From Halanaerobium saccharolyticum (GTDB lineage Bacteria > Bacillota > Halanaerobiia > Halanaerobiales > Halanaerobiaceae), in the NCBI RefSeq assembly GCF_004362045.1, contig NZ_SNWX01000030.1, positions 1-39,523 of the forward strand: DNA of 39,523 nucleotides, in the 5' to 3' direction. Position 1 is the stretch's first letter. The number at the start of each line of letters is the position of its first letter. The position numbers were made by a program, and so were the translations under genes. The notes beneath the pieces were generated by a model that made no database searches, was not told the DNA's origin, and saw only the letters and a program-made list of their open reading frames with translations. Below are positions 4,712 to 10,610 of this stretch, piece after piece.

Positions 4712-4783
4712 AGAATCTCCCTTAAGGTTTGTGGTAAAATGTTTTTAGCACAAAAACCATACCAAAACCAAAAAGGAGATTCT
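4712..4783 (+). promoter_or_regulatory. Hairpin sequestering the transposase RBS on read-through RNA
   Basis: AGAATCTCC (4712-4720) is perfectly complementary to GGAGATTCT (4775-4783), which contains the transposase Shine-Dalgarno core. Weaker inner pairing is possible (GGTTT...TGGTA with TACCAAAACC). An extended -10 element TGGTAAAAT lies at 4732-4740, so a transcript from the IS's own promoter would start near 4747 and lack the left arm. Only RNA entering from outside, for example from the GH65 gene, would form the hairpin. The pairing is seen directly; the regulatory role is inferred by analogy with IS10 and IS50. Confidence 0.65.
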
Positions 4784-4786
4784 GAT

Positions 4787-6154
4787 ATGAGTTTACCACA
4801 AAACAACAATAAAATAAATAGTTTTAACAAATTGAATATTCCAGCTAAATTTGATAGTGATACTGTGTCCAGTTGTCCAGCTTTTTCTTATCTGGAAGCT
4901 GCTAAATCCTGTATAGATTTTAAATCTTTAATTTCAGATAATATTAGTTATCAAAAAGCAGCTAACGCAATCTATCAGCCTACTGATATCATTGATTTTA
5001 TGGTTGATGCATCCATCCTAGGGTATTCCCGCTTTTCTCATTATGAAAATCTTAGAGAAGATGCAGGATATCTAAAAATCAAAGAATTTAATGTTCCCAG
5101 TGAAAAAGTATGTCGTGATCTTCTGAAAGCCATGCCAGAAGAAAGTGTAAATGAACTGAGAGAGCTCAATAAAAATCTTCTAGCAACAATTGCTAAAACA
5201 CAGCCTGCTAAAGAAGTGATCCTCGATTTTGACGATACAGTCTGTACCGTTTTTGGTAATCAGGAAGGTTCCGCAAATGGATATAATCCAAGGTATAAAG
5301 GCAGACCTTCTTTTAAAGAAAAAGTGGGAATCATATCTAAAACTGATGAACTACTTAACCTGACACTGGAAGAAGGTACTCATCACAGCAACCATGAATT
5401 TCTTAGTTTCTTAGAATCCTGTATTGAGACTCTACCCAAAACCTGGTATCTAAAAAGAATCAGAGCAGATAGAGGTTTCTTTGATCAGAAAAACTTTAGA
5501 TACTGTGAAGATAACGGCATCGAATATGTCATTAAAGCTAAAATGCAAAATGGTGTCAAAAAGATTATTGATTATGTCAATGAAAATCCTGATCAATATC
5601 CCTGGGTTAAAATCGATAACACATTTAGTGTTACAGAAATTAGAGTCCCGCTAAAAAGCTGGGATAGAGAGCGTAGATTTGTTTTAATCAAAAAATCATT
5701 ACCAAAAAGCAACAAAAATGGTCAGCTTCTTTTTGAAGAGTTTACCTATGAATATCAGGCCATAGTTACTAATGTTGACTATCTAACAGCTGAAGAAGTA
5801 TTCAATGACTACAACCAACGCTGTAATATTGAAAACAAGATAGACGAGCTGAAAGAAGGCTTTGCCTTTGACCAGAACACTCAGATTAATCGCAAATGTA
5901 ATGAGCTGTATTTACTGATTAAAATGATTGCTTTTAACCTTAATAACTGGTTTAAAAGAACTTTCTTACCTGAAAGTATGCACCATCATGAGATAACAAC
6001 GTTAAGAAGGATCTTTTACAAAATAGCAGGTAATATCTGCGGCAGCGGCTGGTACAAACACATCCGCTTTGCCCCAAATAAAATACTGGAAAAAACAATT
6101 AAACATCTTAGAAAAGCGTTAACAGATTTTAGAAAGAAGGTGGTGCTAAATTAA
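4787..6154 (+). CDS. IS1380-family transposase
   Basis: DDE transposase of 455 residues, full length for IS1380. The motif block DFDDTVCTVFGNQEGSANGY holds the first catalytic Asp. The stretch RIRADRGFFDQKNF holds the second Asp. NIENKIDELKEGFAFDQ holds the catalytic Glu in its usual context. The ATG at 4787 is chosen over an in-frame ATG 48 bases upstream because AAGGAG at 4773-4778 is correctly spaced and the extra codons would overlap the predicted promoter. No frameshift or internal stop is present, so the protein may be active. Its RBS lies in the right arm of the hairpin at 4712-4783. Confidence 0.93.
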   Translation: MSLPQNNNKINSFNKLNIPAKFDSDTVSSCPAFSYLEAAKSCIDFKSLISDNISYQKAANAIYQPTDIIDFMVDASILGYSRFSHYENLREDAGYLKIKEFNVPSEKVCRDLLKAMPEESVNELRELNKNLLATIAKTQPAKEVILDFDDTVCTVFGNQEGSANGYNPRYKGRPSFKEKVGIISKTDELLNLTLEEGTHHSNHEFLSFLESCIETLPKTWYLKRIRADRGFFDQKNFRYCEDNGIEYVIKAKMQNGVKKIIDYVNENPDQYPWVKIDNTFSVTEIRVPLKSWDRERRFVLIKKSLPKSNKNGQLLFEEFTYEYQAIVTNVDYLTAEEVFNDYNQRCNIENKIDELKEGFAFDQNTQINRKCNELYLLIKMIAFNLNNWFKRTFLPESMHHHEITTLRRIFYKIAGNICGSGWYKHIRFAPNKILEKTIKHLRKALTDFRKKVVLN

Positions 6155-6381: not shown

Positions 6382-6409
6382 AAAAAAGGCTCCCATTTAT
6401 CAGGGAGCC
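6382..6409 (-). terminator. Intrinsic terminator of the ABC operon
   Basis: Read on the minus strand, GGCTCCC (6409-6403) and GGGAGCC (6394-6388) form a 7-bp GC-rich stem with an 8-base loop, followed by TTTTTT (6387-6382). It closes the minus-strand transporter operon, 22 bases after its last stop codon. Confidence 0.88.
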
Positions 6410-6430
6410 TGACTAATTAAATCTATTTTA

Positions 6431-7228
6431 TTAAACTGAGAGCAGCATGCGGTCATTATTAAATTTACCACCGTGTTTAATTTCAAACATTTTCAGCAGT
6501 TTTTCTATTGTAAGTTCCTCTTTTTCTTCAGCTTTAATATCATAAATAATTTGGCCGTCATCCATCATAATCAAACGATTGCCCATCTTAATAGCATCTT
6601 CCATATTATGAGTGATCATTAAAGTAGTTATATTGTTTTCATTGACCAATTCTGCAGTTAAGTTTTTAATTTTAATTGCTGTTGCAGGATCTAGAGCGGC
6701 TGTATGCTCATCCAATAATAACAGACGCGGATTGGCTACAGTAGCCATCAAAAGTGTTAAGGCCTGCCTCTGACCTCCAGATAGAAGCTTAACTTTGGTT
6801 GTCAGCCTTTTTTCTAGTCCCAGATCAATTTTTTCCAGATGTTTACGCATAATTTCTCTTTTATGTTTACTTAAACCCCATTTAAGAGAAAGATTATTAC
6901 TTTTAGAAATTGCCAGTGACAGATTTTCTTCGATTGTCATTTCGGGGGAAGTTCCGGCTAGTGGATTCTGAAAAACACGTCCAATCTCTTGAGCACATTT
7001 ATACTCAGATTTTTTTGTGATATCCTCATTATCCAGAATAATAGTACCATTTTCAACGGGAAAAACCCCGGCAATAGAATTTAAAAGAGTTGACTTACCT
7101 GCTCCGTTACTACCTACTATTGTAATAAAATCTCCTTCATTAACAGTTAAATCAATTTTATTAATTGCTATATTCTCATTTGGAGTACCTCTGTAAAATA
7201 TTTTTTCTAAATTTTTGACTTTCAGCAT
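6431..7228 (-). CDS. ABC transporter ATP-binding protein (TrpZ-type)
   Basis: ATPase of an importer of the COG2984/COG4120/COG1101 type, annotated in other firmicutes as a putative tryptophan/tyrosine transporter. All ABC motifs are present: Walker A GSNGAGKST near residue 38, signature LSGGQRQALTL near 149, Walker B LLLLDEHTAALDP near 170, and H-loop ITHN near 205. Length is 265 residues. GAGGTGATAAAAAATG supports the start at 7228. It lies 6 bases after the permease stop codon, so the two are co-translated. Substrate is not proven; amino acid is the family expectation. Confidence 0.9.
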   Translation of the reverse strand: MLKVKNLEKIFYRGTPNENIAINKIDLTVNEGDFITIVGSNGAGKSTLLNSIAGVFPVENGTIILDNEDITKKSEYKCAQEIGRVFQNPLAGTSPEMTIEENLSLAISKSNNLSLKWGLSKHKREIMRKHLEKIDLGLEKRLTTKVKLLSGGQRQALTLLMATVANPRLLLLDEHTAALDPATAIKIKNLTAELVNENNITTLMITHNMEDAIKMGNRLIMMDDGQIIYDIKAEEKEELTIEKLLKMFEIKHGGKFNNDRMLLSV

Positions 7229-7234
7229 TTTTTA

Positions 7235-8101
7235 TCACCTCAATGCTTTTTTTATTCTTGGAGTTGATAGGAAAATAATAACCAGAATAGCTGTTAATAA
7301 TTTTAAATCAGAAGCTGCAAGTCCCAGGTTCAGAGCAATAGAAATACTGAAACGATAAAGAATTGAACCAATAATAACTCCCATAGTTGCAATCATAATG
7401 GACCTTTCTCCTATTACAACCTCACCAATGATTACTGATGCCAGACCGGCCACAATTGTACCAACTCCCATATTTACATCTGCAAATCCCTGATACTGAC
7501 CAACAAGAGCACCGGAAAGAGCAACTAAAGCGTTGGAAATTATTAATCCCAGCATTTTCATAGAATTTGTACTGATTCCCATACTTCTAATCATCTGCGG
7601 GTTATCTCCAGTAGCTCTCAGAGCAAAACCAATCTGGGTATTTAAAAATGCATCCAGAACTAATTTAACAGCAACTATTATTACAATTAACAAGAGTAAA
7701 TTATTCCAGGGATAAGGGACACCAAGATCTCTAATAAAAGAGAAAATTGTATCCTTTCCTATCAGCGGTATATTAGGCCTGCCCATTACCCTCAGGTTAA
7801 TAGAATACAAAGAAGTCATAGTCAAAATACCGGATAGAAGAGGAGCAATTTTTAATTTAGTATTTAAAAAACCTGTAATTGCTCCGGCAAAGCCACCTGC
7901 AATGATAGCTGCTCCCAGTGACAAAAATGGATTCATCCCCATTGTGAGTAATCTTGCCGAAACAGCAGCTCCCAGAGGAAGGCTGCCGTCTACAGTAAGA
8001 TCCGCAAAATCAAGGATTCTAAAAGATATAAATACCCCCAGAGCCATGATTCCGAAAGCCAGACCCTGTTCTAAAGACGTAATTGCAAAACTTAGATTCA
8101 T
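7235..8101 (-). CDS. ABC transporter permease (TrpY-type)
   Basis: Integral membrane subunit of the same importer, 288 residues, with about eight hydrophobic segments resembling the branched-chain amino acid/ribose permease superfamily. Recognisable parts are LDFADLTVDGSLPLGAA near 35 and GFALRATGDNPQMIRSMGI near 165, the conserved cytoplasmic loop. I start it at the ATG at 8101, since GAGGTG lies 5 bases upstream. A GTG twelve bases further up would overlap this Shine-Dalgarno sequence. It is 55 bases after the binding-protein gene. Confidence 0.9.
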   Translation of the reverse strand: MNLSFAITSLEQGLAFGIMALGVFISFRILDFADLTVDGSLPLGAAVSARLLTMGMNPFLSLGAAIIAGGFAGAITGFLNTKLKIAPLLSGILTMTSLYSINLRVMGRPNIPLIGKDTIFSFIRDLGVPYPWNNLLLLIVIIVAVKLVLDAFLNTQIGFALRATGDNPQMIRSMGISTNSMKMLGLIISNALVALSGALVGQYQGFADVNMGVGTIVAGLASVIIGEVVIGERSIMIATMGVIIGSILYRFSISIALNLGLAASDLKLLTAILVIIFLSTPRIKKALR

Positions 8102-8156
8102 AACACACCTCACATCATTTCTAAACTACATATTTTATTTAAAATAATTCTTAATT

Positions 8157-9134
8157 TTATTCCTGTGTAATTTCTTCATAAATTACATCAGCTCTGTCTA
8201 AGACAGCAGCAGGTATTTCAAGATTTAAATTTTCAGCAGCTTTTTTATTTAGATATAATTTTAATTGATCTGAAGATTGTACAGCCATTTCTGCAGGATC
8301 AGCTCCATTTAAAATTTGTGCTGCCATTTTACCAGTTTGAATACCCAATAATTTATAGTCAATTCCTAAAGTAGCAATTGAGCCCTGTCTAACCTGTCCA
8401 TTCTCTGATGCAAATACAGGGATATTATTTTGATTGGTAATATTTAAAACAGAAGGTAAAGCAGATACTATAATATTGTCTGTAGGGACATAAACTGCAT
8501 CAACATCTCCGACTAGAGAAGAAGCGGCAAGACTAACTTCACTACTATTGCTGACTGTAGCTTCGTGTAGTTTAATTCCCATTTCTGCTGTAACCTTTTT
8601 TACCAGATCAATCTGAACAACTGAGTTTACTTCACCAGGATTATAAAGAACTCCCAGATCAGTTATTTCCGGAATAAATTCTTTAATTAATTCAATCTGT
8701 TTTTCTACTGGATTCATGTCTGTAGTTCCAGTCATATTTCCGCCTGGAACTTCCATGCTTTCAACTATACCAGCCTTTACAGGATCAGTTACAGCCGTAA
8801 ATAATACTGGTGTATCTGTAATTACATTTGCTGCAGCCTGAGCATTAGGAGTAGCAATTGTCAGGATTAAATCTAGATTGTCTCCTCTAAACTGTTGAGC
8901 AATAGATTGAGCAGTTGCAAAATCAGCCTGGGCATTTTGCACAATAAATTCGATGTTTTCTTTACTAAATCCAGCGGCTGTAAGTCCTTCAATAAAACCT
9001 TCCCGGGCTGCGTCCAGAGCTGGATGTTCCACAAATTGCGAAATACCTATTCTATACTCCTGGGCACCTGCTAAGCTGCTAACTAAGACTAATAAAACTG
9101 ATAAAATTACTAAAATCGAGATATTTTTTTCCAT
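8157..9134 (-). CDS. ABC transporter substrate-binding protein (TrpX-type, COG2984)
   Basis: Periplasmic binding protein, 325 residues, resembling family 1 binding folds. The N-terminus is a signal peptide with a hydrophobic core at 6-22 and probable cleavage after SSLAGA. There is no lipobox cysteine, so it is a soluble periplasmic protein, which suggests a diderm cell. The body shows YRIGISQFVEHPALDAAREGF, LILTIATPNAQAAANV and GVLYNPGE, characteristic of COG2984. Homologues in firmicutes take up tryptophan or tyrosine and are often under T-box control (established). Here the upstream leader has no T-box core but does have a strong terminator. The RBS AAAGGGG is clear, and an upstream CCCC could pair with it. 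Confidence 0.9.
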   Translation of the reverse strand: MEKNISILVILSVLLVLVSSLAGAQEYRIGISQFVEHPALDAAREGFIEGLTAAGFSKENIEFIVQNAQADFATAQSIAQQFRGDNLDLILTIATPNAQAAANVITDTPVLFTAVTDPVKAGIVESMEVPGGNMTGTTDMNPVEKQIELIKEFIPEITDLGVLYNPGEVNSVVQIDLVKKVTAEMGIKLHEATVSNSSEVSLAASSLVGDVDAVYVPTDNIIVSALPSVLNITNQNNIPVFASENGQVRQGSIATLGIDYKLLGIQTGKMAAQILNGADPAEMAVQSSDQLKLYLNKKAAENLNLEIPAAVLDRADVIYEEITQE

Positions 9135-9170
9135 TTTTTATTCCCCTTTCTAACTGGTAGTGGGGATAAT

Positions 9171-9197
9171 AAAAAAAACACTCCTGGTGGAGTGTTT
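9171..9197 (-). terminator. Attenuator in the leader of the TrpXYZ-type operon
   Basis: On the minus strand AAACACTCC (9197-9189) and GGAGTGTTT (9184-9176) form a 9-bp stem with an ACCA loop, running straight into eight T residues (9178-9171). It lies between the promoter at 9319-9348 and the first gene at 9134, so transcription of the operon must pass it. Confidence 0.9.
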
Positions 9198-9312
9198 AAT
9201 TGCTTTTAGCTATTTCGCCTAAATTAGGTAAAGATACCCCTTGTTTAAACAAATAGCTTTAGCTTCCCTACAAATTCTCCTACCGTATTACCATGCTACC
9301 AGTTATTTGATT
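9198..9312 (-). promoter_or_regulatory. Structured leader RNA of unknown class, riboswitch or protein-bound attenuator
   Basis: About 115 nt from the predicted start site to the attenuator. Possible helices in the RNA are GCTATTT (9248-9254 region) with AAATAGC, GGTATCTTTACC, CCTAATTTAGG and TTGTTTAAACAA. AACTGGTAG at its 5' end (9304-9296) is perfectly complementary to CTACCAGTT (9160-9152), located after the terminator and just before the RBS. The 5' part has three UAG triplets within 31 nt (9298, 9282, 9270). I could not match it to T-box, purine, SAM, TPP, c-di-GMP, lysine, ykkC or yybP-ykoY consensus sequences from memory. A HutP-like antiterminator gene lies immediately upstream. Confidence 0.7.
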
Positions 9313-9318
9313 TTCTTT

Positions 9319-9348
9319 ATTATACTATTATATGTGTACCTTTGTCAA
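9319..9348 (-). promoter_or_regulatory. Sigma-A-type promoter of the TrpXYZ-type operon
   Basis: On the minus strand: perfect -35 TTGACA (9348-9343), 18-base spacer, perfect -10 TATAAT (9324-9319). Transcription should begin near 9312, so the structured leader begins almost at the first nucleotide. Confidence 0.88.
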
Positions 9349-9387
9349 CTTAATGAGCCCATATAAAATAATGATTTAATTAACTAA

Positions 9388-9810
9388 TTAATCCCCTTTA
9401 TCAAGTAATGAACGATGACTTAAACCAACAGTAACTTCATTTAAATTAAACATACCTACCCCAAAAAAGACAGCAACAACTATATGTTCCCCACTGCGGG
9501 CAACACCAATTTTACCTCCTACATTTAAACCCATTGTTCTGGGCATAATCTGGGTAACTGCATCATGAGCTGCTCCAGCAACTGCTCCCTGGGCAACATG
9601 TGATTCGTCTATTATATTTTCTCTTTTGGCAGCAATAACTGCTCTTTCAATGATTTCTGGAACAGATTTATTGAATTCACCACCAAAGTCCACAGCCGCA
9701 GTATTTATCTCATCAGCTGCAAAATCTTTTTTTAATTGTTTTTCTTCACTTCGAGTAGAAATAGCCATTTTAATAGCTGCTTTTGCAGTTTCTAAACTAT
9801 TATGCTCCAT
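9388..9810 (-). CDS. hutP: HutP-family RNA-binding antiterminator
   Basis: HutP of Bacillus subtilis binds the hut leader RNA with L-histidine and Mg2+ and prevents termination. This 140-residue protein has the family's C-terminal core: DESHVAQGAVAGAAHDAVTQ at 68-87, then IGVARSGEHIVVAVFFGVGM and EVTVGLSHRS at the end. H71 and H132 align with two of the three metal-binding histidines (H73 and H138, from memory). The third (H77) appears replaced by G75, while H82 aligns with another conserved His. AGGAGG lies upstream of the ATG. No hut catabolic genes are in view. The next operon downstream on the same strand has an attenuator, and no clear terminator separates the two, so this is its candidate regulator (inference). 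An extended -10 TGCTATAAT lies at 9849-9841. Confidence 0.85.
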   Translation of the reverse strand: MEHNSLETAKAAIKMAISTRSEEKQLKKDFAADEINTAAVDFGGEFNKSVPEIIERAVIAAKRENIIDESHVAQGAVAGAAHDAVTQIMPRTMGLNVGGKIGVARSGEHIVVAVFFGVGMFNLNEVTVGLSHRSLLDKGD

Positions 9811-10064: not shown

Positions 10065-10610
10065 ATTAATATTTTACTAGTAGCACTGGCATTAGCACTT
10101 GATGCTGCAGGTGTCACAATGGCAATTGGCTGTGGAACTAGAACAAATCTGAGAGAGAAATTTAAGGTTATAATTTCATTTGGCTTTTTTCAATTTTTCT
10201 TTGCTTTAACTGGTGGATTAGCAGGAAACTATATTGATACAAATTTCTTTACTATTTCTAATTATTTTAGTGGAGCGGTGATATTTTTACTCGGTATTTT
10301 TCTGATTCGAGAGGGATACAAAAACGGAGAAGAGTGTATATACAGACAGCTAAGTTTCTGGACTGTGGTTGTGCTTGGAGTAAGTGTCAGCATTGATGCT
10401 CTGGGTGCTGGATTTTCACTTCTTTTTAGTTTAGATTATTCTCTGATCTTTCAGGATTCATTAATAATTGGCCTTATTGCTGCTGTAATTACAGCAGCTG
10501 CTTTTAAAATTGTTAACTATATTAAACATATTGCTTTAGTGGAAAAATATGCAGATTATGTTGGGGGCTTTATTTTATTAATAATTGGGATCAATACTTT
10601 TCTTGCATAA
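10065..10610 (+). CDS. MntP/YtaF-family membrane protein with predicted AUU start
   Basis: Six-segment inner-membrane protein; MntP members export manganese, YtaF members are of unknown function. The two halves carry related Asp motifs: ALALDAAGV in segment 1 and SVSIDALGAGF in segment 4. The first canonical ATG (10119) would cut away most of segment 1 including its conserved Asp and has no Shine-Dalgarno sequence. Reading upstream in frame gives ILLVALALALDAAGVTMAIG, the expected family N-terminus, back to a TAA at 10062. GGAGGGG at 10052-10058 lies 6 bases before an ATT at 10065, which I take as the start (181 residues, the normal family length). The next ATT (10071) is an alternative. No yybP-ykoY riboswitch consensus was seen upstream. 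Confidence 0.75.
   Translation: MNILLVALALALDAAGVTMAIGCGTRTNLREKFKVIISFGFFQFFFALTGGLAGNYIDTNFFTISNYFSGAVIFLLGIFLIREGYKNGEECIYRQLSFWTVVVLGVSVSIDALGAGFSLLFSLDYSLIFQDSLIIGLIAAVITAAAFKIVNYIKHIALVEKYADYVGGFILLIIGINTFLA

Follow-up and report, generated by a model that had tools for sequence, protein, structure and literature searches.

A HutP-family protein encoded beside a tryptophan-type ABC importer in Halanaerobium saccharolyticum, here called HutP-A, probably belongs to a distinct HutP subfamily that works as a TRAP-like attenuation protein and turns the importer off in response to an aromatic amino acid or a close metabolite. HutP itself has been described as a histidine-responsive antiterminator of hut operons. 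The locus was found in a stretch of 39,523 nucleotides (contig NZ_SNWX01000030.1, positions 1 to 39,523), referred to below as the window, and was compared with related loci across the phylum; genomes, loci and leader families are named by our own labels only where they must be told apart.

The hutP-trpXYZ locus and its leader

The genes and control elements of the locus are listed in Table 1. The promoter of the trpXYZ leader was the top-scoring one among the 22 promoter-like sites of the region. The 178-nt leader that follows it folds with a z of -4.5, none of 200 shuffled sequences being equally stable. The importer gene set (PF04392, PF02653 and PF00005) is complete and of the TrpXYZ type. 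It should be noted that the window trpX scored 298 bits against the NCBIfam TrpX model NF041285, under the equivalog cut-off of 390, and the substrate of the importer is therefore not certain; scores of 351-359 bits were obtained in loci L117 and L126.

No Rfam 15 family at gathering score covers the window leader, and none was found at related loci. Neither the window leader nor any of 12 related loci matched the T-box covariance model (RF00230). The best loose match, Phe_leader (E 0.12), came mainly from the generic terminator and was rejected.

A preliminary description of this DNA had listed the HutP-family gene, the consensus promoter, the 178-nt leader, a 9-bp terminator and three importer genes on one strand, and all of these are present. 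Its terminator span of 9197-9171 holds for the hairpin (9197-9176), while the end at 9171 takes in part of the U-tract. It was also right that hut catabolic genes are missing: there are none in the window, and HutH (PF00221) is absent from the whole genome. What it had overlooked are the GGUA repeats, their complementarity to the terminator and to an anti-repeat, and the phylum-wide distribution of the system.

Table 1 Features of the hutP-trpXYZ locus in the window
Feature	Position	Strand	Remarks
hutP-A, 140-aa HutP-family protein, proposed RNA-binding attenuator	9388..9810	-	PF09021, 153.5 bits (cut-off 25)
Promoter of the trpXYZ leader, TTGACA-18-TATAAT	9319..9348	-	12/12 consensus; kept in the compared Halanaerobiales loci
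Repeat 1 with 5' flank, AACUGGUAG	9296..9304	-	Pairs with the anti-repeat
Three GGUA repeats, GGUAGCAU-GGUAAUAC-GGUAGG, proposed HutP-A binding site	9279..9300	-	8-nt period
Repeat 3, GGUAGGAG, 5' strand of the proposed antiterminator	9277..9284	-	Complementary to the terminator 5' arm and loop
Intrinsic terminator, AAACACTCC-ACCA-GGAGTGTTT	9176..9197	-	9 bp, then 8 T; conserved in relatives
Predicted Shine-Dalgarno sequestering hairpin, CCCC (9165-9162) with GGGG (9146-9143)	9143..9165	-	
Anti-repeat, CUACCAGUU	9152..9160	-	Between terminator and Shine-Dalgarno; pairs with repeats 1-2
trpX-like substrate-binding protein of ABC importer	8157..9134	-	PF04392, 301 bits
trpY-like permease	7235..8113	-	PF02653
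trpZ-like ATPase	6431..7228	-	PF00005
Operon-end terminator	6387..6410	-	

Several other features of the genome were recorded. A second trpX-like paralog (L226; own genome C6:4153-5115), 63% identical and with a promoter near its start, showed neither a GGUA leader nor an Rfam T-box. In the window, a DDE_Tnp_1_4 transposase gene (4739-6154, +) separates the importer operon from a glycoside phosphorylase-like gene, and group II intron domains RF02001 and RF01998 (39075-39385, +) are found near the right end. A manganese efflux gene of the Mntp family (10119-10610, +) adjoins hutP; its open reading frame extends 5' of the first ATG, and a rare start codon (e.g., ATT after GGAGGGG) may be used.

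HutP-A, the GGUA repeats and their distribution

The AlphaFold model of HutP-A (pLDDT 91.4) matched six HutP entries with VIA-align Z scores of 15-17, the next unrelated match scoring 7.1, and Foldseek against HutP structures gave a best E of 5e-8. This is the fold of a single-stranded RNA-binding protein. Searches of PDB sequences with HutP-A, whether with a single sequence or with a profile, found no HutP entry, but the fold comparison did. The positions of the Mg-histidine triad (H73, H77 and H138) are occupied by Gly, Gly and Glu/Asp in all 60 HutP-A sequences, in an alignment whose register near the helix comes from MAFFT and flanking A..A..E/D-A matches rather than from a residue-level structural alignment. 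The reference for the triad was a sequence that we take to be that of Bacillus subtilis HutP, and the sequence of PDB 4ok9 has the same histidine motif.

Proteins of PF09021 were found in all 38 Halanaerobiales genomes and fall into three types, of which HutP-A, the type of the window, occurs in 20 genomes from four families. The second, HutP-B (~155 aa; L052:4836-5306, own genome C2:174895-175281), is closer by sequence to the Bacillus/Geobacillus HutP (PDB 4ok9, E 8.8e-5). Its gene sits before ABC exporter and lipid A-type genes, and similar proteins are encoded in many Halanaerobiales genomes. In the third, CBS domains are fused to the HutP domain (L053:4700-5491, own genome C19:44714-45082), which suggests a nucleotide-sensing RNA-binding protein; the gene lies beside ispF/ispD, gltX and cysS, and such matches occur in most Halanaerobiales genomes.

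The 5' end of the window leader reads AACUGGUAGCAUGGUAAUACGGUAGGAG, with GGUA at 9300-9297, 9292-9289 and 9284-9281, a period of exactly 8 nt, and the repeats start about 12 nt downstream of the expected transcription start. The conserved element of the leaders is (GGUANNAY)3, located upstream of the terminator; the region from the repeats to the terminator varies freely in length and sequence among relatives. In the 26 leaders collected, 47 of 53 adjacent GGUA pairs are spaced by exactly 8 nt, and the consensus of the unit is GGUA(G/A)(U/G)A(Y). The repeats are direct and non-palindromic, and their strand is fixed relative to the gene. The genome of the window contains a single match, even with up to one mismatch allowed, and the named records that carry the leader motif are mostly Halanaerobium.

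The motif tracks HutP-A. With related genomes counted as independent in these and the pairing statistics below, 18 of the 20 HutP-A genomes of the Halanaerobiales had the strict motif, in one copy each, and all 18 genomes without HutP-A lacked it. The two other HutP-A genomes, G001 and G007, have looser copies plus an extra set over the trpX start. Among the 398 genomes sampled from the phylum, 242 have HutP-A matches and 20 have the strict motif, 19 of these together with HutP-A; most HutP-A genomes thus do not have the strict three-repeat form. The motif of the remaining genome, G038, stands isolated, and no gene start is recognisable downstream of it. Three further matches to the genome-wide pattern were in Magasanikbacteria and Bacteroidetes records, where we estimate that about two would be expected by chance.

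In the 19 genomes with both motif and HutP-A, the motif precedes trpX (7), hutP (5) or a DAHP synthase gene (6), or, in one genome (L175), spans the start codon of aroH, which lies within an operon immediately downstream of hutP. Copies of GGUA also cover the translation start in G001, G007, G082, G390 and G341. Outside the Halanaerobiales, HutP-A is followed directly by aroH (chorismate mutase) at 24 of 38 loci, often with aroF-pheA-tyrA-aroA; many Clostridia-like bacteria have the gene among those for aromatic amino-acid synthesis. In L151, profiles identified chorismate mutase (TIGR01796), DAHP synthase, prephenate dehydratase and EPSP synthase, as well as a prephenate dehydrogenase-like protein that fell below equivalog cut-offs. 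Ten of the 38 loci have neither aroH nor trpXYZ, and reading them revealed no partner common to all ten.

Of the best 30 trpX loci, 22 come from HutP-A genomes, and 14 of these have paired GGUA repeats upstream; the other eight, from genomes without HutP-A or with weak hits only, have none, and one genome without it (G174) has a T-box at trpX. In the window's genome, one DAHP synthase gene (L233:1159-1354, +) is preceded by a T-box-like leader, with a score short of gathering (71 bits, E 1.6e-15), and by no GGUA repeats, so the HutP-A regulon there seems to consist of the importer alone. A TwoAYGGAY RNA match (L216:1278-1435, -; 49.7 bits, gathering 43) was observed in G082 between tandem trpX-like genes and on their strand; the first gene of this pair bears GGUA repeats.

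Predicted antiterminator and Shine-Dalgarno switch

When the nascent window RNA was folded to the terminator loop, seven of the eight bases of repeat 3 paired with the terminator, in its 5' arm and loop (P 0.97-1.0), in the form CUCC-ACC with the A bulged. In h_G331, the terminator segment CUCCUACC pairs with the last repeat over eight pairs, and in G151 (CUCUUACC) and G237 (CUCUUACU) the complementarity is kept by G-U pairs. The 23 distinct leader terminators were more complementary to the repeat than 179 other distinct terminators from the same loci (p = 3e-12, relatedness not corrected). Real terminators were taken as the background because single-sequence shuffle tests of each leader gave only modest results. 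The pairing varies over the 26 leaders and is weak in G352, h_G353, a_G378 and a_G071. As the full-length leader folds with the terminator formed, antitermination would have to be kinetic, with the antiterminator made first.

A second switch is predicted at the ribosome-binding site. The duplex of repeats and anti-repeat, including repeat 2, reaches -18.7 kcal/mol (z -4.1; 0 of 300 shuffles), and next to the anti-repeat lies the CCCC that would otherwise sequester the GGGG of the Shine-Dalgarno. The match became poorer when leaders were given each other's anti-repeats (p = 0.006, seven representatives). The predicted probability that the window Shine-Dalgarno is unpaired was about 0.86 with the repeats free and 0.00 with the repeats blocked; across 15 trpX leaders the means were 0.77 and 0.05, against 0.74 when other 25-nt stretches were blocked and 0.30 when the repeats were shuffled. 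Family f7 supports the anti-repeat poorly, and in two of its leaders the Shine-Dalgarno is mostly hidden even when the repeats are free. In G390 the switch is missing, and GGUA copies cover the start region itself.

Proposed mechanism and its alternatives

From these observations we infer that HutP-A binds the repeats in response to a ligand and lowers expression. At high levels of an aromatic amino acid, or of a closely related metabolite, HutP-A would bind the trpXYZ transcript at its 5' end, on the three GGUA repeats. Repeat 3, once bound, could not pair with the terminator loop and 5' arm to build the antiterminator, and transcription would stop; in any read-through mRNA the bound repeats could not pair with the anti-repeat, CCCC would pair with the Shine-Dalgarno, and translation would be poor. 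The OFF state would thus have the repeats occupied by HutP-A and both the terminator and the Shine-Dalgarno hairpin formed. Under scarcity of the amino acid, the free repeats would form the antiterminator and the repeat/anti-repeat helix, two ON helices that nest, and the importer would be made. Other bacteria of the phylum would use this protein and these repeats to regulate DAHP synthase, trpX, the hutP gene and, with repeats spanning the start codon, aroH.

The sign of this response is where HutP-A and B. subtilis HutP would part. The latter recognises NAG repeats in clusters of three and averts termination (PMC7430163), and the shared Pfam family and fold would suit a similar induction circuit, in which ligand-bound HutP-A blocks the terminator and activates the importer. 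We consider this quite unlikely, as the window repeats overlap the antiterminator strand and not the terminator, which is about 80 nt downstream, the Shine-Dalgarno becomes hidden when the repeats are blocked, and activation of the other, biosynthetic targets by their end product would be odd. The overlap with the antiterminator strand, together with the biosynthetic and uptake targets, argues for ligand-bound attenuation as in TRAP. The same wiring could also serve histidine or another metabolite: HutP proper senses histidine, and the aromatic ligand of HutP-A is deduced from its gene neighbourhood. This is unlikely, given the replacement of the histidine triad in every HutP-A sequence, the lack of hutH in the genome, and neighbours that include chorismate mutase, DAHP synthase, prephenate dehydratase and dehydrogenase and TrpX-like proteins, which point to an aromatic amino acid as the likely signal.

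Explanations that leave HutP-A out fare less well. A leader that is conserved and strongly structured (z -4.5), with mutually exclusive folds, might be a riboswitch sensing a metabolite directly, the HutP gene being a conserved neighbour without a role in it. This is highly improbable: the conserved core is a short linear repeat and not a pocket-like fold, the spacer to the terminator is free in length and sequence, no Rfam family matches, and the repeats are restricted to HutP-A genomes save for one isolated hit and also occur bare across start codons. It is very unlikely, too, that the repeats act as an operator in the DNA, recognised by a transcription factor, or as the site of another RNA-binding protein. 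Operators do lie at such distances past the expected transcription start, but direct, non-palindromic repeats on a fixed strand, complementary as RNA to terminator loops and anti-repeats and once placed over a start codon just after hutP within the operon (L175), do not resemble one, and they track HutP-A, which has an RNA-binding fold.

Attenuation by HutP-A is thus our preferred reading, and it retains part of the preliminary description. That account had proposed that this HutP relative responds to an amino acid and governs read-through into its own importer, and had asked whether the hutP-leader-trpXYZ order is conserved in Halanaerobiales. Gene order, kept at 18 of 19 Halanaerobiales group-A loci from four families despite differing flanking genes, and the tracking of HutP-A by the motif favour the core of the idea. 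The two outcomes it had named as counting against it did not appear: the motif is absent from Halanaerobiales genomes without HutP-A, and the leader matches no Rfam riboswitch family. Its importer-specific scope gives way to a phylum-wide aromatic amino-acid arrangement, and HutP-type antitermination to a likely attenuation in which bound protein would cause termination and a hidden Shine-Dalgarno. Nor is adjacency to hutP needed, since motif-bearing trpX genes are unlinked to hutP in G373 and G411.

TRAP is an 11-mer that binds 11 (G/U)AG repeats. HutP-A, an unrelated protein that has the HutP fold and is predicted to bind three GGUA repeats of 8-nt period, may be its counterpart. The TRAP (MtrB) system combines leader repeats, a choice between antiterminator and terminator, translational control of some targets and aromatic amino-acid genes (PMC7430163), and the computed HutP-A leaders resemble it in working, the repeats both overlapping the antiterminator and governing access to the Shine-Dalgarno. 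HutP-A and B. subtilis HutP (PDB 1wmq, 1wpv, 1vea and 4h4l) are alike in PF09021 and fold, and HutP-A would similarly be expected to bind three short repeats on one RNA strand. HutP proper is a hexamer in which the ligand induces RNA binding, and it recognises NAG/UAG triplets within the terminator region. The motif here, however, is made of GGUA units every 8 nt; HutP-A lacks the Mg-histidine triad and accompanying hut genes, and its repeats also occur at start codons. Its sites overlap the antiterminator, not the terminator, and a response of opposite sign is therefore predicted. The Streptococcus suis trpXYZ operon, which encodes the same type of tryptophan importer, is also leader-controlled, by a T-box (PMC9382623); a T-box senses tRNA, whereas the window leader has none and would sense through a protein. 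In PyrR-type attenuation a protein on the leader decides between antiterminator and terminator (PMC7430163), but the RNA element, ligand and targets differ. The HutP-A system is apparently undescribed; no description of HutP with tryptophan, chorismate, DAHP synthase or Clostridia was found in open-licence papers, subscription papers being outside this search.

We lean towards the broader view that the commonest HutP subfamily of the phylum is an aromatic amino-acid attenuator and not a histidine antiterminator. It would be an independent evolutionary solution to the task of TRAP and would act through (GGUANNAY)n on both transcription termination and the start of translation, its targets being DAHP synthase, chorismate mutase, a tryptophan-type importer and the hutP gene itself. 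The proposal is directly testable with one small protein and one 180-nt RNA. If it is true, a protein of 242 of the 398 sampled genomes would gain a regulon, an RNA code (GGUA, 8-nt period) and a likely ligand class, and its mechanism would be opposite in sign to that of the type member HutP. A second, unrelated protein doing the job of TRAP would mean convergence in the RNA-based control of aromatic amino acids.
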